Assembly: GCA_945288535.1 (NCBI GenBank)
Contig: CALYQQ010000007.1
Span: 62,001-126,000, forward strand
Direction: 5' to 3'
Source: an uncultured Enterobacterales bacterium
GTDB taxonomy: Bacteria > Pseudomonadota > Gammaproteobacteria > Enterobacterales > CALYQQ01
Length of the DNA: 64,000 bases
Shown in pieces: positions 12,409 through 41,674 of this stretch; the stretch's first letter is position 1; each line of letters begins with the position of its first letter. The notes under the pieces are model-generated. The model was given only the letters and a program-made list of their open reading frames with translations, searched no databases and was not told the origin of the DNA. The translations under genes and the position numbers were made by a program.

Positions 12409-13061
12409 ATACTTTCTCCATATATTTAATTTTAATTAAATATAGATTATCACTGAATACTTAATAAATGGAATTAATTTATACTAATTTTATTAATAAA
12501 AAATAAAAATAAAGTTTGTTTGTTTTTTTTGTCGGCAATTGTTAAAAACTTATTATTAATTAATTAAAATTTGTTTTCAGATTGTTCTTTAGAAGTTATA
12601 AAATAATATATTATTTGTCAAATAATAATTAATTATAATATTTAAAAAAATAAAAATTTAAATAAATTAAAAGTATTACTTAATAAAATAAATATAACCT
12701 ATTGTTATTTAATGATTTTTATTAAATTCTGTTTTTTTCTTTTTTTATAAAACATGATGGTGTAATAATTTTTCACTTTTTAAAAAAGTAATCATCATTT
12801 TTTTTATTTATAATTAACTTGATTTAATTATTTATTAAAAATTAAATTGAATTAAAGTATAAAAATTATTATTAATAATTATAAGCTGAAATATAAAAGA
12901 TAATTTTCTTTATACGTTATAATAGTAATACTATTAAAAATGAAATAGTGTTAGTAATTGTATAATATGAAAGTTATATCGAATAAAGACTAGATTATTC
13001 GTTATAATTTCATTACATTACATCTTTCTTTATACCTATTCGCGTAAATTTTGAGGAAGTG
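12409..13061. other. adhE-ychE divergent spacer, no gene seen
   Basis: About 650 bases of very AT-rich DNA holding the divergent promoters of adhE and ychE. No coding region is visible. In E. coli the adhE leader is long and regulated by Fnr, Cra and Fis; I could not confirm any such site here. Confidence 0.5.
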
Positions 13062-13694
13062 ATGGATTTTTCAGAGTATATTAAGTTTTTTGTTGGTTTG
13101 GTCGCGGTTGTGAATCCAGTGGGTATCTTACCTGTATTTATTAGCATGACCAATTATCAATCTGTCACTGTTCGAAATAAAACCAATGTAACAGCTAATT
13201 TATCATTGGCCCTTATTCTATTGGTATCATTATTTTTAGGGGATCGTATTCTCGATCTATTTAGTATATCGATGGAATCATTCCGTATTGCGGGGGGGGT
13301 ATTAATAGTATCGATTGCAATGTCAATGATTAGTGGTCGATTAGGTGAAGACAAACAAAACAAGCAGGAAAAATCTGAAACAGTTATTCGTGATAGTATT
13401 GGTGTTGTTCCACTTGCTATGCCATTAATGGCCGGCCCGGGAGCAATTAGTACAGTAATTGTTTGGGGTGCACATTATCATAGTTGGTATGATTTATTGG
13501 GTTTAAGTTTTACAATTATAATATTTGCTTGTTTTTGTTGGATTTTGTTTAAAACCGCCTCTGTTCTAGTAAAAGCACTTGGTCAAACTGGAATAAATGT
13601 TTTTACTCGAATTATGGGATTATTACTAATGTCACTTGGCATAGAATTTATTATCATGGGTGTTCGTGCAGCATTACCTGGATTAGTAAACTAA
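13062..13694 (+). CDS. ychE: MarC/YchE family inner-membrane protein
   Basis: A UPF0056 multi-pass membrane protein of unknown transport function, 210 residues with about six hydrophobic helices. The family motifs are VAVVNPVGILPVFI at the N-terminus and PLAMPLMAGPGAIST in the middle. A GAGGAAG ribosome binding site directs the ATG at 13062; the GTG codon immediately before it lies within that binding site and is not the start. It precedes oppA in the same direction, as in E. coli, but about 300 bases apart. Confidence 0.93.
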   Translation: MDFSEYIKFFVGLVAVVNPVGILPVFISMTNYQSVTVRNKTNVTANLSLALILLVSLFLGDRILDLFSISMESFRIAGGVLIVSIAMSMISGRLGEDKQNKQEKSETVIRDSIGVVPLAMPLMAGPGAISTVIVWGAHYHSWYDLLGLSFTIIIFACFCWILFKTASVLVKALGQTGINVFTRIMGLLLMSLGIEFIIMGVRAALPGLVN

Positions 13695-13990
13695 TAGCTT
13701 ATGTTTATCACATGATAAGAATAAAATAACTTATTTTAATAGGTTTTTATATTTATTGATGAGTATTTACTTTATATTTTTATTTTAATGCAATAATTAA
13801 TAGTCTATTTGACATAATAATTTTTTAGCTAAAAAATGTTAAATTACATGAGAAGGTTATTTTTTAAGATAAAAATAATATATTAGTATAAAGTTTTTTA
13901 TATTGTTAATAAGAAAACCATTTATATTGATGTTGTAATGTTGTAATAAGTATAATCAGGTGAGCGGATTCTTATAACACAGGGGGAAGG

Positions 13991-15634
13991 ATGAAAAGTA
14001 AAACTAAATATAATATTTCAATAAGTTCTGCACTATTTTTATGGATGGCAACTATTAATAGTGTATATGCAGCAAATGTTCCTCAATATATCACTTTGGC
14101 AGATAAACAAGAAATTGTTATTAATAATGGTACAGAACCTACATCACTTGATCCACATAAAGTTGATGGTACACCTGAAGCTAATTTACTTTACAACCTG
14201 TTAGAAGGATTAACAATTACGGATGATAAAGGACAAACTATTGGTGGCGTAGCAGAAAGTTGGGAAAATCACGATTACAAAGTTTGGACATTTCATTTAA
14301 GAAAAGAGGCTAAATGGTCTAATGGTGAACCACTCACTGCTAAGGATTTTGTTTACAGTTGGCAGCGAGCTATTGATCCTAATGTTGCTTCTCCTTATGC
14401 GAGCTATTTTAGTTATGCACATATCGAAAATATTGATGATATCATTAATGGCAAAAAATCTCCTGCAGATTTGGGCGTAAAGGCATTAGATGATTATACA
14501 TTACAAGTAAAATTAACAGAATCAGTACCTTATTTTCCTAAGATGCTATCACATGCGTCTACGAAGCCTGTTCATCAAAAAACAATAGAGCAATTTGGTG
14601 ATAAATGGACACAAGCTAAAAATTGGGTAGGTAATGGCGCATATACACTTGATCAATGGATTGTTAATGAACGCATTGTATTGAAAAGAAATCCTTATTA
14701 TTGGGATAATAGTCATACAGTAATTAATAAAGTTACATTGTTACCCTTAACGTCATCTGTTACTGATGTTACACGTTATCAAGCAAATGAAGTTGATATC
14801 ACCTATAATGAAATCCCTATTGAACTGTATAGCAAAATTAAAAAGGAAATGGGTGATCAATTACATATTAACCCTTATTTATGTGTTTATTATTACGAAT
14901 TGAACAATTCAATAGCACCTGTGAACAATTTACAGGTTCGTAAAGCACTTAGTTTAGCATTAGACCGAGATATCATAGTTAATCGTATATTAAATCAAGG
15001 TCAAAAAATCGCTTATACCTTTACGCCTCCTTATATTGATGATGGTAACTTAATCCAGATTCCCGACTGGGCTAATCAAGCACAAGATAAACGCAATCAA
15101 GAAGCTATTGAATTACTGAAAAAAGCAGGTTATTCGGCTAATAATAAATTAGAATTGCAGCTTCTTTACAATACTAACGATGTACATAGTAAAATTGCTG
15201 TCGCAGCAAGTGCTATTTGGAAGAAAAATTTAGCGGGTATGGTTGAAATTAAACTTATCAATCAAGAATGGAAAACATTTTTAGATACTCGCCGTCTAGG
15301 TAAACATCAAATTGCACGTGGTGGCTGGTGTGCTGATTACAATGAGCCTAGTAGCTTTCTTAATATTATGCTTTCTAATAGTAGTAATAATCATTCTTTT
15401 TATAAAAGTGCTGGGTTCGATGCAATTATGGCTAAAACAAAAACCGCTGTAACTGCACAAGAACGTCAACAAATATATGCAAAGGCCGAAGAAAAATTAG
15501 ATCAAGATACGGCAGTAATTCCCATTTTTCATTATGTGAATATTCGGTTAGTTAAACCTTATGTTGGTGGTTATCCTGATAAAAATCCACTAAATGAAAT
15601 GTATGTTAAGGATCTTTATATCATTAAACATTAA
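13991..15634 (+). CDS. oppA: Oligopeptide-binding periplasmic protein
   Basis: The periplasmic receptor of the oligopeptide ABC importer. The 547 residues carry a signal peptide (basic MKSKTK, hydrophobic core, cleavage near YAAN) and the SBP family 5 fold. Landmarks include EPTSLDPHKVDGTPEANLLY, WSNGEPLTAKDFVYSW and RNPYYWD. A GGGGGAAGG ribosome binding site precedes the ATG. It is separated from oppB by a strong hairpin, a layout that allows more OppA than membrane components. Other enterobacteria regulate oppA by the sRNA GcvB; no site was verified here. Confidence 0.97.
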   Translation: MKSKTKYNISISSALFLWMATINSVYAANVPQYITLADKQEIVINNGTEPTSLDPHKVDGTPEANLLYNLLEGLTITDDKGQTIGGVAESWENHDYKVWTFHLRKEAKWSNGEPLTAKDFVYSWQRAIDPNVASPYASYFSYAHIENIDDIINGKKSPADLGVKALDDYTLQVKLTESVPYFPKMLSHASTKPVHQKTIEQFGDKWTQAKNWVGNGAYTLDQWIVNERIVLKRNPYYWDNSHTVINKVTLLPLTSSVTDVTRYQANEVDITYNEIPIELYSKIKKEMGDQLHINPYLCVYYYELNNSIAPVNNLQVRKALSLALDRDIIVNRILNQGQKIAYTFTPPYIDDGNLIQIPDWANQAQDKRNQEAIELLKKAGYSANNKLELQLLYNTNDVHSKIAVAASAIWKKNLAGMVEIKLINQEWKTFLDTRRLGKHQIARGGWCADYNEPSSFLNIMLSNSSNNHSFYKSAGFDAIMAKTKTAVTAQERQQIYAKAEEKLDQDTAVIPIFHYVNIRLVKPYVGGYPDKNPLNEMYVKDLYIIKH

Positions 15635-34543: not shown

Positions 34544-34683
34544 GATAAACTCCCTTCTTAAATATGAAATGATAAAAAGTACATGCTGTACTAACTAATT
34601 CTTATTAAAGAAATATATTACGGCGATATAGCTAATATCATTTGGGGTTTAGTCTATTTTTTAACTAAATAAGACCATGTACT

Positions 34684-34712
34684 AGTATGGTGATTCAATA
34701 TTAAAAAGTCAA
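34684..34712 (-). promoter_or_regulatory. trp operon promoter with TrpR-like half-site
   Basis: On the minus strand TTGACT (34712-34707), a 17-base spacer and CATACT (34689-34684) form a near-consensus sigma-70 promoter. The -10 box runs into ACTAGTAC, one half of the E. coli trp operator, which also overlaps the -10 there. The second half-site is not evident. The leader to trpE is about 134 nt. Its small frames contain no tandem Trp codons, so a classical trpL attenuator is not seen. Confidence 0.75.
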
Positions 34713-35084
34713 GTAGATAACAATTTTTGTTATTGTATAAATGCATAGATTGATTGTTATTTCATGTTAAATGAAAAAAATGTAATGGATAATAGCTGAA
34801 GTTACTGTCTATTACGTTTATCAATTAATGAGTAAAAAAAGATAGCCTAAATGGTAAATTAAACTAATGTATTGCTGCATAATATAATTTATATAAAAGA
34901 GTGTTACCGAGTCTACTATTTAGGTACGATGACTATTGATAATATGTAAGAATAAGATGCAGTTAACAAATTAAAATGAGCGTATCTGAAGAGAAGTACA
35001 TTTAACTAGCCGAACTGTTTGGAAAGTTTTATCAGGAAGACATGTTCAAAGATCGCGTATATTATGTAGTAAGTGCTCTAAATA
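34713..35084. other. Spacer between trp promoter and cassette terminator
   Basis: About 370 AT-rich bases upstream of the trp promoter. No gene, RNA or strong hairpin was recognised. In many enterobacteria trpH would start here on the opposite strand; I see no remnant. Confidence 0.5.
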
Positions 35085-35111
35085 AAAACCACTTTATATG
35101 CAAGTGGTTTT
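35085..35111 (-). terminator. Terminator of the nucleoside/ATP-grasp operon
   Basis: A ten-base-pair stem (AAAACCACTT / AAGTGGTTTT on the plus strand) with a seven-base loop is followed on the minus strand by TTTATTTAG. It lies about 60 bases after the last ATP-grasp gene and marks the end of the five-gene operon. Confidence 0.85.
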
Positions 35112-35169
35112 AATAAATAGACACTATATTTAGCGAGTAAATCTAGAGATAATATATCATCTGAGAATA

Positions 35170-36408
35170 TCAGTTTTTTAAAACAGTCTCGCAATTAATC
35201 GGCGATGTTTCAATTATAGATTGTTCTAAATTAAACGACTCAATTGCTACGCTATCAAGCGATTTAAATATGTTTTTAATCATATTATGATTTCCAGCAA
35301 CAATAATATTTCTTGAAGGATTACCATCTACATGTATTACTTCATCACGATAGATAATGAGATCTTTTTTATCAAAGAGTTCTGGCGCTATTTCATCTGC
35401 TAAACGACCACCAATTTGAAGTGCTGAATTGTTTGAAATATTGCTTGCTACTAAATTTTTATTCCACTCCCCAGAAGAAATAAGATAAAGCGCTTCGAAT
35501 GAATTTATTCCACTGGCAGCAGAGCTTAAGCAACTAATCCCACTTATTCTTGGGTTAATTTCAAGGAAAAAAATGTTATCGTCTTTGACAATAAAGTCTA
35601 CACAGCAGGCACCGGAATAATCTAAATAAGTCAATAGATTACATAAACGCATCTTTATTTCATGATTTAATTGACCTTTGAAAAATTCAGGATGAGATAT
35701 CCGAACTGTATCAAAATTAGAGCGTACCCCGTTGCTAGTTTTTCCTGTAAAACAGGGAGGTTGAATAAAATAATTATCAGGTGTACCTATGATTTCAATA
35801 CATCCAAGATAACCATCAATGAAAGATTCAACAAGAATGTTTTTTTGGTCATTCGAATTTAAATTTTTGATTAACTCAAATTCATTACTTATTATTTCAA
35901 TTCCATGTCCCATACAATCCCATAGAGGTTTTGAGATAACGGGAAATGGAATATGACTGATTAATTCGATCTCTAATTTATTTCCAAATGGCTCTTTTAA
36001 GAGGTGGCCTTGAGTGAATTCCCTATCTAAAATTTCCCATTTTGGGGTAGGAAGGGAAAACTGTTCAAAGAGTGTTTTGGTTGCTCTTTTATCTGCTAGT
36101 TTATAAATGGCAGTCACTGGACCAGGTACAGTCTCTACATCCTTTAGTAGCGTGATGTCTTCAATGGTTCGTTCATTTGGTATTGACCAGGATATTACCT
36201 TTTTTATGCGCTTTTGTGAAAATACATTATTATCTATGTCTTCATACAACGCATCTGAAATTAGAGGCTTGAAATTTTTGGGCTGATCTTTCAATAACAA
36301 AAATGAATCACGATTTGTTATTTTAATTTTTTTCCATGCCATTTCTAAAAAGGGAGAAGCTTGGATCACATCTAAAGATCGTATACACAATAAAGCTGAT
36401 GATTTCAT
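35170..36408 (-). CDS. ATP-grasp ligase, divergent (last gene of cassette)
   Basis: A 412-residue ATP-grasp protein expected to activate a carboxylate as acyl-phosphate and join it to an amine. An N-terminal pre-ATP domain runs to about 105. The nucleotide-binding Lys is probably in VISKPLWDCMGHGIEII (about 158-172), with adenine-binding LVESFI (about 192-197). Metal ligands are in CVDFIVKDD (about 269-277) and FLEINPRISG (281-290). The last of these is the hallmark ATP-grasp motif and suggests catalytic competence. It is distinct in sequence from the neighbouring ligase, so the pair probably acts on different substrates. Its start overlaps the preceding gene by ATGA. Substrates are unknown. 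Confidence 0.85.
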   Translation of the reverse strand: MKSSALLCIRSLDVIQASPFLEMAWKKIKITNRDSFLLLKDQPKNFKPLISDALYEDIDNNVFSQKRIKKVISWSIPNERTIEDITLLKDVETVPGPVTAIYKLADKRATKTLFEQFSLPTPKWEILDREFTQGHLLKEPFGNKLEIELISHIPFPVISKPLWDCMGHGIEIISNEFELIKNLNSNDQKNILVESFIDGYLGCIEIIGTPDNYFIQPPCFTGKTSNGVRSNFDTVRISHPEFFKGQLNHEIKMRLCNLLTYLDYSGACCVDFIVKDDNIFFLEINPRISGISCLSSAASGINSFEALYLISSGEWNKNLVASNISNNSALQIGGRLADEIAPELFDKKDLIIYRDEVIHVDGNPSRNIIVAGNHNMIKNIFKSLDSVAIESFNLEQSIIETSPINCETVLKN

Positions 36409-37673
36409 TCTATATCAACCTTTGTTGTCTTAGATAATTCATCCATAGCATGAAGGATAGATTGTTCACTATTTGAGACTAAAATAGCCCAGCCTAACCT
36501 TTCCATATTTGTTGAACCTGGTTTAACATGCGAACCTAATTGTGCCGTGACCCTGGATTCTATAATATTTGCATGATCGAGTTTAGAAGGTAATTTAAGA
36601 GATTTAAATATACCTTCTGTCTCGGGGCGGATAAACTGTACAGCAGAATATCGCTTAGCATGTGCAGGCGTAAAGTCAGCATGGAGATTACCTACAGCAT
36701 GCTTTGCATAAATCGCTAAGGGATTTTCATCAGTAGAAATTTCGACTAAGCGAGGAATATAATCTCCCGCTGGTCTAGAGCAACTCTCAATAATACGAGG
36801 TTTGCCATTATGATCTAACTTTATTTCAGTATGACTGATGCCATTCGTAATACCTAGCGCAATCACGGCTTTACCTGCCACAGCTAAAATATCATCACGT
36901 AAAACATCAGAAATAGGTGCCGGAAATATATGGCCCGTTTCAGCTCGCGCTTTTCCCTGGGTGGTAAATTTCATTGTGACGCCCCAAGGAAAATATTTGC
37001 CTGATATAGAAATGCCTTCTACACTAAATTCTTGTCCTGGAATATATTCTTGAATAAGAATTTCGTTACTAAATGGAATATCATGCGGGAATTCATGACT
37101 CCATTGTGAAGCATCAGTATATGCTTGTGGAAGATCCTCAATAGTGTTAATGACTGATACACCAAAAGATGCAGCATTTTCAGCAGGTTTCACAACTAAA
37201 GGAAACGTTAGATCTTCAAGATGAAGTTGGTTGATATCATCTTTGTTCGTGATGACTGCTTGTAAATGAGGAAGCGGGCAATGTGCGTCAGCTAATATTC
37301 GATACATAAAATGTTTGTTTCGTCTAGCTTTAGATAACGTCGCATCAGGTCCACAGAGATTTAGACCATGAGCCACTTCAGCGGCAATATCGGTTAGAAA
37401 TTCCCAAGAGACAACAACACCAGAAACGCCTTTTTTCCTTGATTCATTAATTAATGTTTCTATTGCTTTTTCTCTTACAGAAAAGTCGACAAAGATAGTA
37501 TCATCCATTAATTCTTTAAAGTTTAACAGCATAGAATGATAGACTTTTTCTGTGGTCGCTATTACTGTATGCAAGCCGAGTGAACGTATTGCTTTAAGAA
37601 GTAATTCCCCCCCCATCCCAATGGGTTCAATTACCAAAATAATTTTCTTTTCATTAATCGTTGAAGCGCTCAT
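36405..37673 (-). CDS. ATP-grasp amino-acid ligase (BacD/L-amino-acid ligase-like)
   Basis: A 422-residue ATP-grasp enzyme resembling L-amino-acid alpha-ligases (BacD/YwfE type), which form peptide bonds between unprotected amino acids. The N-terminal Rossmann-like domain begins IILVIEPIGMGGELLL. The ATP-binding Lys lies in PLVVKPAENAASFGV (about 158-172), the adenine-side residues in IQEYIPGQEFSVEG (207-220), and Mg ligands in GISHTEIKLD (278-287) and PRIIESCSRPAGD (292-304). A C-terminal lid of about 110 residues follows. AAAGGAGAA precedes the ATG. It overlaps the MFS gene start-to-stop by 20 bases and the next ligase by four. Specificity cannot be read from sequence alone. Confidence 0.88.
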   Translation of the reverse strand: MSASTINEKKIILVIEPIGMGGELLLKAIRSLGLHTVIATTEKVYHSMLLNFKELMDDTIFVDFSVREKAIETLINESRKKGVSGVVVSWEFLTDIAAEVAHGLNLCGPDATLSKARRNKHFMYRILADAHCPLPHLQAVITNKDDINQLHLEDLTFPLVVKPAENAASFGVSVINTIEDLPQAYTDASQWSHEFPHDIPFSNEILIQEYIPGQEFSVEGISISGKYFPWGVTMKFTTQGKARAETGHIFPAPISDVLRDDILAVAGKAVIALGITNGISHTEIKLDHNGKPRIIESCSRPAGDYIPRLVEISTDENPLAIYAKHAVGNLHADFTPAHAKRYSAVQFIRPETEGIFKSLKLPSKLDHANIIESRVTAQLGSHVKPGSTNMERLGWAILVSNSEQSILHAMDELSKTTKVDIE

Positions 37674-38889
37674 TAACTTCTCCTTTCAGATTTTTGAAAC
37701 CAAGCCCAAAAATTAAAATAGTTAATATTAGAAGAACAGCCCATGTTGAATGTTTATTTATGTCAAGAAGCCATCCAAATAAGGCTGGAGATATTGTCAT
37801 TCCGATAGACCATGTCATCTGAAAAGCAGCCATATAGCTACCATTATTCTTTTTAGGTGCTAAATTTATGCTAAGTACATTAACGGAAGGTGTTGACAGC
37901 ATTTCAGCAACACTATATACAAGCATTGCAATTGACAGCACAAAGCAGGTTGCAAGTTTGTTTTCCTCGGTAATACTTGCAAACCAAAAAAGAACGAATG
38001 AAAAAATATTAAGAAAATATGAAAATTTTATACTCTGTATTGGTTCATACTCTTTGGTCCATGAAGCAACGTGGGTACTTAATAAAGCTACGATAACTGT
38101 ATTAAAGATCACTAATCCTCCAGAAAACAAGGGCGGTAGTCCGAGTTGTTCTGTAGCATAAATTACTATCACTAAGGGGATCACCATTGCGGCTAAGACT
38201 AAACCAAAATTAAGGATAAGCAGTCGACGATAGCGACAATCTAAAAACACACTTTTTAAGTTTTGTTTTTTTTCATCTTTTAAATCCTCTGTTTCATCCA
38301 AATATAGGCTTGGTTGCCAAATTGTCAGAGTAAGACAAGATAAAAAATAAAATAAAGATGAAGCGATAATGACACAATGTAAACTTGTATTTGAATTGCT
38401 CGATAATGCTAATGATGTGAAAATAGTGCCTAATCCAAGTCCAATATTTCTAATCGACGCAATTAAACCAAACCATATTTGTGTGCCACTCCCTCCTGAA
38501 GCTAATAGCACAAGTCCACGATTACTTGTCCAAAAAATATGGGAACCTGCTTGAGTCAAAAGCTGAGTGAACATTATTGTAAAAGGGTCTCTAGCGAAAA
38601 GACACATAATGAAACCAATGCCACACATGAAATCACCATAAATTGATAACTTCTTAGGGCCAAGTTTATCTAATAATCGACCAATCAAAATTGGCACTAA
38701 TGATGAAAGTGCTCGACCTGTAGCTATAGCTAATCCAATTACAGATAGACTTAACGTAGTTGTCCTATTGAAGTAAATCATCATAAACGCCATGATTAAG
38801 CCACTTCCCGTTGCATTAAGAATTGTTGATACAACAAAAAGTTTGGAACGATTTATGTTGGGCACAGATACTTTAAAAATATTTTTCAC
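37654..38889 (-). CDS. Major facilitator superfamily exporter
   Basis: A 411-residue, 12-helix MFS protein of the drug:proton antiporter type. The loop 2-3 motif is GRLLDKLGPKKL. A charged cytoplasmic central loop (about 205-225, EDLKDEKKQNLKS) divides two six-helix halves. A second motif-like stretch APKKNNGSYMAAFQMTWSIG is in the C-terminal half. It lies 17 bases after the thymidylate-synthase-like gene and overlaps the first ligase. In this setting it most plausibly exports the pathway product and gives self-protection. Uptake of a precursor is an alternative. Confidence 0.88.
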   Translation of the reverse strand: MKNIFKVSVPNINRSKLFVVSTILNATGSGLIMAFMMIYFNRTTTLSLSVIGLAIATGRALSSLVPILIGRLLDKLGPKKLSIYGDFMCGIGFIMCLFARDPFTIMFTQLLTQAGSHIFWTSNRGLVLLASGGSGTQIWFGLIASIRNIGLGLGTIFTSLALSSNSNTSLHCVIIASSLFYFLSCLTLTIWQPSLYLDETEDLKDEKKQNLKSVFLDCRYRRLLILNFGLVLAAMVIPLVIVIYATEQLGLPPLFSGGLVIFNTVIVALLSTHVASWTKEYEPIQSIKFSYFLNIFSFVLFWFASITEENKLATCFVLSIAMLVYSVAEMLSTPSVNVLSINLAPKKNNGSYMAAFQMTWSIGMTISPALFGWLLDINKHSTWAVLLILTILIFGLGFKNLKGEVNERFND

Positions 38890-38906: not shown

Positions 38907-39989
38907 TTATACAGTTAAACTATCAGTAATTGAATCTCTCATTAGATTAAATGCGGTTAAGAAATCAGGCGATATTTCGTTAATGAGATTAAGCGTTTCC
39001 TGGGATTTCCATTTACGACTTAAATATTCAATAGCGGCTATGTGGAAATCGGTGTCACCTAAATCGCGTAGGTAGTTTATTATAATATCCCTATCAACAT
39101 TCAACTGTAGTGCATTATGTATTTTTAAAAGAATTGCTGAATTTCTAAAGAAAGGATCGTTGATTTTATGTTCTATCTCAGAAGACTTATTGAAATCGCC
39201 AATTCTTGAGTATTCCTCAGCATTGAAAACCATAGCTAAAGTATCATCGAGCTCAGCAATACAAATATTAATTGGTGTTGGTTTAATATTAAACTCATAC
39301 ATACTTTTAGGTTGAGATATTTTACTAATTTTTTTTGCTGTAGAATAATGGCGGTTGTAAATGTGGAAAGTTCCTACATACCAAGATAAGTGACCCACTT
39401 TCCACGCCATAGTATTAGCAATAATTTCGTGTAATACGCTCCATTCAAAGAAATTTATCCCACTGAATCCCCAAATAGCGTCATTAGCACGTACAGTAAC
39501 ATGCAAATCAAGATAGCCATTACGTTGAATAAAATGCAACCAGTTATTACAAGGTACATCTTTTGTATCTTGATAATCACTTTCTGGATCAAAAATAGTC
39601 ATAACTGCGCGTTTAGTTAATGGGTCCTCTTTAAGTCGTTTAATAACACCTTCTAATTGATCTATTTTCCCTTTCCAATTTCTTAGCCTTGGCCCATAAG
39701 CTGCTCGCCAAGTCAATTTATCATCGGAAAATTCTATAGCACGAGGAAGATAATTATTTAAAAATGCCAAATCATTTCTCCCAGCTAAAACCCATAATGT
39801 TTCAGCAACTTGTGCAAAAACATTATTATTACGGTAGGGTATAACGAGAAATCGTTCTGTAGGAAGATGTATTTTTGTCAATGTCGATAAGACTTCCATT
39901 TGTTCTTGATCGCGAGAGCCTATTTTTTTCCCTTTATTTAAAATTGTATCAAGAGTATTTATTAACGCATTCGTAATATTACGATTCAT
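38907..39989 (-). CDS. Thymidylate-synthase-fold pyrimidine nucleotide C5-modifying enzyme
   Basis: A 360-residue protein whose first about 220 residues follow the thymidylate synthase fold. It has ETLWVLAGRNDLAFL, a phosphate-binding Lys-Arg pair in LTKRAVMTIFDPE, and the catalytic Cys in VPCNNWLHF (Cys147). VRANDAIWGFSGINFFEW contains Arg167, Asp170 and Asn179, and HIYNRHY has His209/Tyr211. Differences from true ThyA are Ala for the conserved Ser after the Arg, a one-residue insertion before the Asn, and a non-ThyA C-terminal extension of about 140 residues. Such proteins include CMP/dCMP hydroxymethylases of the MilA type. The ATG at 39989 follows AGGAAAAAT; an ATG four codons earlier is less likely. 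It overlaps the preceding gene. Confidence 0.85.
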   Translation of the reverse strand: MNRNITNALINTLDTILNKGKKIGSRDQEQMEVLSTLTKIHLPTERFLVIPYRNNNVFAQVAETLWVLAGRNDLAFLNNYLPRAIEFSDDKLTWRAAYGPRLRNWKGKIDQLEGVIKRLKEDPLTKRAVMTIFDPESDYQDTKDVPCNNWLHFIQRNGYLDLHVTVRANDAIWGFSGINFFEWSVLHEIIANTMAWKVGHLSWYVGTFHIYNRHYSTAKKISKISQPKSMYEFNIKPTPINICIAELDDTLAMVFNAEEYSRIGDFNKSSEIEHKINDPFFRNSAILLKIHNALQLNVDRDIIINYLRDLGDTDFHIAAIEYLSRKWKSQETLNLINEISPDFLTAFNLMRDSITDSLTV

Positions 39990-40497
39990 ATTTTTCCTCA
40001 TAGCCTAATTTCGCCATTTCACGCTCAATGATGAGATATGCTTCTTCTAGATCCTCATATTCGAAATGACGACACCCCTCACTACCTGAAATCATGGCTG
40101 AGACAACTTTATTATTTCCTCGTTTAAACAGCGTAATCACAGGGATCCGCCAACTTATAGCTGTTGCAATCTCATAACCGACTCCAAGACTAGGGGTCGT
40201 GACTTCTGCGACAACAACGTGAGAGTGGCGCAGCCAATGCAGATCTCTATCATGAATAAACTTATCTGTTAAAAATGATTGGCCTCCAATTGATAAACTG
40301 TAATCGCCGACATGTTCTGTGATTACTTGTCCATATTTTTTTAGTTTAGTGATTAACTTAGAATAGATAGGTACATCATCTCGACCTGCTCTAATAGAGC
40401 CTGCAAAATAAATGACTAATATTTGCTCATTAGCAATGTCACTCGTGATAGTATGTAATATTTCACTCATTAATATTATCCATATAGTAAATCTCAT
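39979..40497 (-). CDS. DNPH1/MilB-family nucleotide N-glycosidase
   Basis: This 172-residue protein is a clear relative of 2'-deoxynucleoside 5'-phosphate N-hydrolase (DNPH1/Rcl) and of the CMP N-glycosidases MilB and BlsM. The phosphate-site motif VIYFAGSIRAGRDD (about 28-41) and TEHVGD are present. HDRDLHWLRHSHVVVAEVTTPSLGVGYE (82-109) supplies the family's catalytic Asp85 and Glu98. VVSAMISG holds the conserved Ser133 that reaches the partner active site in the dimer. It would release a free pyrimidine (or purine) base from a nucleoside monophosphate. First gene of the cassette operon; an alternative ATG lies nine codons downstream. Confidence 0.88.
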   Translation of the reverse strand: MRFTIWIILMSEILHTITSDIANEQILVIYFAGSIRAGRDDVPIYSKLITKLKKYGQVITEHVGDYSLSIGGQSFLTDKFIHDRDLHWLRHSHVVVAEVTTPSLGVGYEIATAISWRIPVITLFKRGNNKVVSAMISGSEGCRHFEYEDLEEAYLIIEREMAKLGYEEKYES

Positions 40498-40734: not shown

Positions 40735-40765
40735 GCGGACAAAAATTCATCAATAAGGAATGGAA

Positions 40766-41674
40766 GTGAATAGCTTTAAAAGTATCAATGCTTTTGTTCA
40801 TGCTGCAGAGTTCAGTAGTTATGTGATGGCTGCTAGAGTTTTAGGTATTTCTCCTTCAGCCGTAGCAAAGAGTGTAGATAGGCTTGAAGACGATCTTGGA
40901 ATAAGATTATTCCACAGGACAACACGTAGCATAAGTTTAACCGAGGAAGGTAATGTTTTTTATGCAAGATGCAAGTTTATACTTGATGAGATTAAAAACA
41001 CAAAAGCATTAATCGTAGAAGCACGTACAATACCAAAAGGCAAATTACATGTGAGTGTACCACAAATCTTTGGTCATACATTTCTTATGCCATTACTACC
41101 TAAATTTTTAGCTAAGTATCCCGATATTCAGTTGGATATCGATTTTGAAGATCGTGTTGTAGATATCATTGCTGAACGAATTGATATTGCGGTCAGAAGT
41201 GGTCTACTTGTTGATAATCGACTTGTTGGTAGAAAGTTGGGGGAGCAATATTTTGTCGTCTGTGCAAGCCAAAAATATATTGATTTGTATGGAGCACCTT
41301 CTACGCCTGCTGAATTAATAGAGCATCACTGTATTCATTTTAAGTATCCTTCAAGTGGGCGTATAGCGCCATGGTCTTTTATGGCACCCTATGAAAATTT
41401 AGATCTTCCAAAGAATCTTATCTTCAATAATACGTATGCAGGGTTACGTGCCGCGATGGATGGTTTAGGGATTGCACATCTACCTGTTTACGTCGCCGAA
41501 GATGCATTTAAAAAACACCAACTTACGCCAATATTAACAGAATATATGTTACCTTTAGGAACGATGTCATTAATATGGCCCTCAAACAGACACTTATCTC
41601 CTAAAGTTAGAGCATTTGCAGATTTTATCAGTAGCGAATTTGCTACGGGTAAATATTTAGTGAATGAATATTAA
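40766..41674 (+). CDS. LysR-type transcriptional regulator, divergent from the cassette
   Basis: A 302-residue LTTR with an N-terminal winged helix-turn-helix (FSSYVMAARVLGISPSAVAKSVDRLEDDLGIRLFHR) and a C-terminal effector-binding domain of two Rossmann-like lobes (about 92-300). The frame opens with ATG at 40760, but AAGGA abuts that codon. The GTG at 40766 has proper spacing (six bases) and gives the typical MNSFKSINAF N-terminus, so I choose it. Divergent orientation from the DNPH1-like gene suggests it controls the cassette. The closest general relatives are DmlR/YafC-type LTTRs, whose ligands vary widely, so the effector is unknown. Confidence 0.9.
   Translation: MNSFKSINAFVHAAEFSSYVMAARVLGISPSAVAKSVDRLEDDLGIRLFHRTTRSISLTEEGNVFYARCKFILDEIKNTKALIVEARTIPKGKLHVSVPQIFGHTFLMPLLPKFLAKYPDIQLDIDFEDRVVDIIAERIDIAVRSGLLVDNRLVGRKLGEQYFVVCASQKYIDLYGAPSTPAELIEHHCIHFKYPSSGRIAPWSFMAPYENLDLPKNLIFNNTYAGLRAAMDGLGIAHLPVYVAEDAFKKHQLTPILTEYMLPLGTMSLIWPSNRHLSPKVRAFADFISSEFATGKYLVNEY

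Follow-up and report, generated by a model that had tools for sequence, protein, structure and literature searches.

Gene organization of the locus

The window, a stretch of 64,000 nucleotides from an uncultured Enterobacterales bacterium with a genome of 2.5 Mb, carries on its minus strand an operon of five genes arranged head to tail, coding for a hydrolase, a TS-fold enzyme, an MFS transporter and two ATP-grasp ligases. The first gene (39979-40497; 172 aa, with a possible internal start at 40470) encodes a DNPH1-type nucleotide N-hydrolase, recognized by a PF05014 match, by rat and human DNPH1 as best PDB matches and by a conserved catalytic set. The second (38907-40001; 364 aa) encodes a TS-fold protein, predicted to be a UMP 5-hydroxymethylase from a PF00303 match of 98 bits, from MilA as best PDB match, from residues Asp148, Cys151, Asn183, Lys130 and Ala172, and from an AlphaFold model with pLDDT 93; its probable start is the ATG at 39989 (360 aa), preferred because a GAGGA ribosome-site-like sequence sits just upstream, while residues are numbered here from the ATG at 40001 (364 aa). 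Both reading frames had been placed at the same minus-strand coordinates in a first-pass annotation, and the 11-base overlap that it reported (39979-39989) is obtained with the ATG at 39989; from the upstream ATG at 40001 the overlap is 23 bases. After a gap of 17 bases follows the MFS gene (37654-38889; PF07690), which overlaps by 20 bases the first ATP-grasp gene (36405-37673; PF13535 and a sub-threshold LAL_C2 match); this in turn overlaps by 4 bases a second, divergent ATP-grasp gene (35170-36408; PF02786/PF02655), whose product keeps the EINPR metal-binding motif.

Divergent from the operon, on the plus strand, lies a gene for a LysR-family protein (40760-41674; PF00126/PF03466), which probably regulates the operon; it occupies the same position, with 72-77% identity, in three of the related loci described below (L010-L012). 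On the other side, between the cassette and trpE, reading of the intergenic sequence revealed a probable terminator, a AAAACCACTT-loop-AAGTGGTTTT hairpin followed by a T-rich tail (35084-35111, minus strand); a mechanical scan had not flagged it. In the trpE leader (34544-35170) the sequence ACTAGTAC resembles a TrpR operator half-site; among the trp genes downstream, trpG and trpD are separate and trpCF is fused.

The TS-fold enzyme

The genome contains a separate, true ThyA on contig C6, which scores 419 bits with PF00303, versus 99 bits for the operon protein (98 in the window scan); these scores, together with Asp148, rule out a duplicate ThyA. The TS-family catalytic set is present in the alignment (Cys151, Glu67, Tyr102, Arg171, Asp174, His213, Tyr215), and the catalytic residues that the first-pass annotation had listed as retained are all there, shifted by four positions: Cys151, Arg171, Asp174, Asn183 and His213/Tyr215. 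ThyA hallmarks are absent, with PCN for PCH, Asp148 for Leu three residues before the Cys, and Ala88/Phe91 for W80/W83. This agrees with the specialised role suggested earlier: the protein falls outside the ThyA group, and a ThyA is encoded separately. Its best solved match, both by sequence and by fold, is the CMP 5-hydroxymethylase MilA, on which the model superposes with a TM of 0.86, C-terminal helical domain included.

Work on T4 dCMP hydroxymethylase names an Asp (or Glu) located three positions ahead of the catalytic Cys as belonging to the hydroxymethylation signature: in the T4 enzyme this Asp activates water, and the D145N mutant is inactive; TS has Leu at this position (PMC6400193). 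The window protein reads Asp148-Val-Pro-Cys151, and Asp is found there in 51 of 51 family sequences, as well as in T4 dCH, SPO1 dUH and MilA, with Leu in ThyA. On the basis of Asp148, the operon enzyme can be called a hydroxymethylase rather than a methylase. An amino acid, instead of water, might trap the methylene, and the resulting 5-(aminoacyl-methyl)uracil would be extended to a small peptide by the ATP-grasp enzymes; such a reaction would provide the ligases with a carboxylate or an amine and would draw on exocyclic-methylene chemistry inherent to the TS family, but the water-activating Asp148 is kept in all members and we know of no precedent for amino-acid trapping in this protein family, so that this is the least probable of the readings considered here, and a highly improbable one.

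Concerning the base, cytosine is marked by Asp (Asp186 in MilA, Asp179 in T4) and uracil by Asn (PMC5175136). The operon enzyme has Asn183 at this position, and not the Asp of the MilA/BcmA type. Two residues before the catalytic Tyr it has Ala100, where T4 has Ser, MilA Thr and SPO1 dUH Ala; it thus lacks the Ser/Thr that is the rule in the dCH family, and since SPO1 dUH also has Ala, Ser/Thr seems to be a trait of cytosine enzymes and not of all hydroxymethylases. From Asn183, Ala100 and the location of sister enzymes beside 5-hmdU DNA kinases, the base can be called uracil. An enzyme acting on cytosine like MilA or BcmA, and leading through hydroxymethylcytosine to a bacimethrin- or mildiomycin-type product, would account for MilA being the best solved match and for the Lys/Ala pair described next, and would follow the same logic as MilA plus MilB; Asn183 instead of Asp and Ala100 instead of Ser/Thr argue against it.

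As for the sugar, MilA owes its ribose preference to Lys133 and Ala176, and the K133R/A176S mutant shows a reversed preference (PMC5175136). Lys130 and Ala172 reproduce this signature in the operon enzyme, for which ribose can be called over deoxyribose under a rule proven by mutation in the MilA background only. The combination Lys/Ala/Asn predicts a UMP 5-hydroxymethylase, and UMP 5-hydroxymethylation by a TS-fold enzyme would be new, as no UMP hydroxymethylase is described in the literature searched. PolB, the UMP C5-methylase of polyoxin biosynthesis, is similar in that it makes a one-carbon change at C5 of UMP within a peptidyl nucleoside pathway; however, it is a flavoenzyme of the ThyX family, it methylates and its fold is unrelated.

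The DNPH1-type hydrolase

The operon hydrolase is the sole PF05014 match in the genome and is related to mammalian DNPH1 with E = 4e-34 (phmmer, PDB), while MilB gave no match to it at E<=1; the cassette hydrolase is therefore DNPH1-type and not MilB-type, a further argument against the cytosine reading. The DNPH1 catalytic set is entirely kept: Tyr30, Arg36, Glu61, His62, Asp85, Glu109 and Ser133 align with human Y24, R30, E55, H56, D80, E104 and S128, so that human E55/H56 correspond to Glu61/His62. Among the residues named in the first-pass annotation, Asp85 (human D80) and Ser133 (human S128) stand, but Glu98 has to be replaced by Glu109, which the alignment places at the nucleophile E104; the mechanistic residues, E104 included, are those established for DNPH1 (PMC10603095). 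Like the human enzyme, which has the same catalytic residues and frees 5-hydroxymethyluracil (hmU) from its nucleotide, the cassette hydrolase is predicted to release the base, in this case from hmUMP. Human DNPH1 differs in being a sanitiser of the nucleotide pool and in its active-site loop, which reads TEHVGDYSLS..GQ in the cassette enzymes; its substrates are 2'-deoxynucleotides, and acceptance of a 2'-hydroxyl by the cassette hydrolases is not readable from sequence. To our knowledge, DNPH1-type hydrolases are so far known as nucleotide sanitisers, and the biosynthetic role predicted here would be new.

Characterised DNPH1 acts on hmdUMP (PMC10603095; PMC10483697), which favors a module working on dUMP, where the TS-like enzyme would form hmdUMP and DNPH1-type cleavage would keep DNA clean, with hmU as a precursor. 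The nearest enzymes with an assigned activity or context, SPO1 dUH and those of bacterial 5-hmdU loci, are also dUMP hydroxymethylases; the comparison of relatives given below speaks for UMP instead.

ATP-grasp ligases and proposed pathway

The first ATP-grasp protein is an L-amino-acid-ligase family enzyme (LAL/DdaF/BacD-like) and is conserved across the ATP-grasp cassettes. A profile search gives BL00235 and BacD as best PDB matches, and these two and DdaF, all L-amino acid ligases, are its nearest named relatives; no match exceeded the NCBIfam curated cut-offs. The second ATP-grasp protein matches generic ATP-grasp enzymes, LAL and PylC in a fold search; its model, with a pLDDT of only 67, is not reliable enough for assigning a class of substrate.

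The idea that the pair first modifies C5 and then releases the base, put forward in the first-pass annotation, is still the best reading, in line with the residues, the operon and the conservation of the pair; the MFS gene and the two ATP-grasp genes, not mentioned there, make the pair a biosynthetic cassette. Family membership, operon, residues, conservation and the context split are read from the sequences, and from these are inferred all the reactions, the preference for UMP, the ligation and the purpose. We consider it probable that this is a two-step pyrimidine module, leading from UMP to 5-hydroxymethyl-UMP and to free hmU, followed by ligation and export. The synthesis would start from UMP and CH2-THF, converted to 5-hydroxymethyl-UMP by the TS-fold enzyme: Cys151 would attack C6, an exocyclic methylene would form, and water would be added via Asp148, replacing hydride transfer. 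The N-glycosidic bond would then be cut by the DNPH1-type enzyme, with Glu109 as nucleophile, Asp85 as acid and Glu61 for water activation, generating hmU and ribose 5-phosphate. Finally, the two ATP-grasp enzymes might ligate amino acids and/or the free base, for which the CH2OH is the most plausible site of attachment; since hmU has no amine, the bond to it would have to be an ester, unless the acceptor is a different one. The MFS protein is probably the exporter of the product, which would probably be an antimetabolite or an antibiotic; the free base probably serves to build a small molecule for export that is not yet described, and that is tractable because the cassette has only five genes.

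The MilA/MilB (mildiomycin) and BcmA/BcmB (bacimethrin) systems share the same scheme of TS-fold ribonucleotide hydroxymethylation and subsequent release of the base by an N-glycosidase within a biosynthetic cluster, as well as the Lys/Ala ribose signature, and MilA also has the C-terminal helical domain. They differ in the base, cytosine (Asp) instead of uracil (Asn), and in their partners, mildiomycin or thiamine-analogue genes instead of ATP-grasp or NRPS genes. In the literature search hydroxymethyluracil was not linked with ATP-grasp, no gene cluster combining TS, ATP-grasp and hydroxymethyl was found, and the paper on Photorhabdus 4'-thiothymidine contains no mention of ATP-grasp or of an N-hydrolase.

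Distribution of the cassette

The adjacent hydrolase-TS pair is kept in nine other loci from three phyla; this conservation and the PF00303 and DNPH1 scores speak against a chance finding. The identical five-gene order, MFS gene included, occurs in Tenebrionibacter intestinalis, two Pantoea, Glycomyces and an actinomycete MAG (L010-L013 and L020). An order-wide spread is ruled out, the gene being present in one of 395 Enterobacterales genomes searched, the window's own.

On 32.9-kb plasmids of Apilactobacillus kunkeei related genes are reordered and accompanied by a third ATP-grasp gene; BLAST gives no link between the MFS gene found there and that of the window. The comparison gives a likely function to these genes of a honeybee symbiont. 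On the pPKS plasmid the cassette (L005, 15905-22243) adjoins a type II PKS cluster, and the corresponding paper lists three ATP-grasp proteins, the words thymidylate and hydrolase being absent from its main text (PMC9648514). A contig assigned to an 'uncultured Clostridia' MAG (L017) matches the A. kunkeei cassette with 99-100% identity and is probably mis-binned.

The pair also occurs in Rhizobium rhizogenes and a Lachnospiraceae MAG (L015, L018), where it precedes a standalone NRPS C domain that retains the HHxxxD motif, an A-PCP protein and one or more glycosyltransferases, beside an MFS or MatE transporter. The presence of two unrelated routes of amino-acid activation beside the same pair suggests, as we infer, that the free base or a derivative is aminoacylated. 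A more tentative proposal, which we hold to be plausible though somewhat short of probable, is that these are exchangeable cassettes common to several animal- and plant-associated bacteria, in which a UMP 5-hydroxymethylase derived from the dUMP hydroxymethylases of DNA modification works with a DNPH1-type hydrolase, and hmU is conjugated to amino acids either by ATP-grasp enzymes, as in the window, or by the standalone NRPS C and A-PCP proteins, as in Rhizobium and Lachnospiraceae. The A-domain pockets, read by eye, are DILQCGMIWK (L018, 8982-10862) and DMFQCGMVWK (L015, 3602-5488), which we tentatively take to be glycine-like; the best PDB match of the L018 A-domain enzyme is to linear gramicidin synthetase A modules. 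A PF12281 nucleotidyltransferase gene (13008-14102) comes after the NRPS-type cassette of L018.

Relationship with dUMP hydroxymethylases

Relatives were gathered via two short peptide patterns, so that the counts refer to a sample. Of the relatives in genomes and plasmids, 50 could be scored. Nine have Lys/Ala/Asn and all nine adjoin a DNPH1-type gene; the other 41 combine Arg/Ser with Asn or, in one case, with Asp, and no DNPH1-type gene accompanies any of them (0/41), while a PF18723 5-hmdU DNA kinase domain lies in the fetched stretch of 38 of them. Fisher's test on the split between signature and DNPH1 gives p ~5e-10, for sequences that are not phylogenetically independent, the members of the pairs L005/L017 and L011/L012 being nearly duplicates of each other. 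A later set of eighteen loci (17 viral, one from a genome) is entirely Arg/Ser without DNPH, with the kinase in 10 of the 17 viral ones. A phage or defence origin of the cassette was rejected: PADLOC gave no match for the TS, hydrolase and ligase genes, and neither Lys/Ala nor DNPH is found in the viral relatives (0/17).

The dUMP 5-hydroxymethylases of SPO1 (gp29), Yuavirus-type phages and bacterial 5-hmdU loci have the same Asp-x-Pro-Cys-Asn motif and Asn marker and are the closest overall in sequence, with up to ~50% identity for the bacterial 5-hmdU loci; they differ by their Arg/Ser deoxyribose signature and by the lack of a DNPH1 partner, and the bacterial ones sit with 5-hmdU DNA kinase, thymidylate-kinase-like, MazG or UDG genes, in a context of DNA modification. 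Because Lys/Ala is present in all cassette enzymes and in none of the 41 dUMP-type relatives, and the DNPH1 gene is never found at dUMP-type loci, a module acting on dUMP appears unlikely. Conversion of UMP is the preferred reading, and the residue split makes this prediction of specificity directly testable.

In a tree built without the diagnostic columns the cassette proteins form one group (support 89/97, not starred), and MilA is not their sister. Forcing them into one clade with MilA, which sits on a long branch and is present as a fragment, was rejected (p-AU 0.017). Genes for a thiaminase, a methyltransferase or mildiomycin sugars are also absent from the operon, and a cytosine product of the MilA kind, rejected on account of Asn183, Ala100, the tree and the type of hydrolase, is given very little probability. 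As the cassette enzymes stand together and apart from MilA, the ribose signature looks convergent, and the family seems to have arisen when a dUMP hydroxymethylase of DNA modification was recruited to UMP, in convergence with MilA.

The dUMP-type relatives (L006-L009, L014, L016, L019, L021-L054) come from chromosomes and MAGs of bacteria, with many Actinomycetota among them, and from rhizobial plasmids. Most lie beside the PF18723 kinase domain, and a thymidylate-kinase-like gene is often present; in some of the rhizobial plasmids MazG_C and a uracil-DNA glycosylase are found instead. These are likely thymidine-hypermodification loci outside recognised phages. Three Arg/Ser relatives (L050, L067 and L074) have Asp at the base position, possibly reflecting a switch to dCMP; L050 still lies beside a 5-hmdU DNA kinase homologue.
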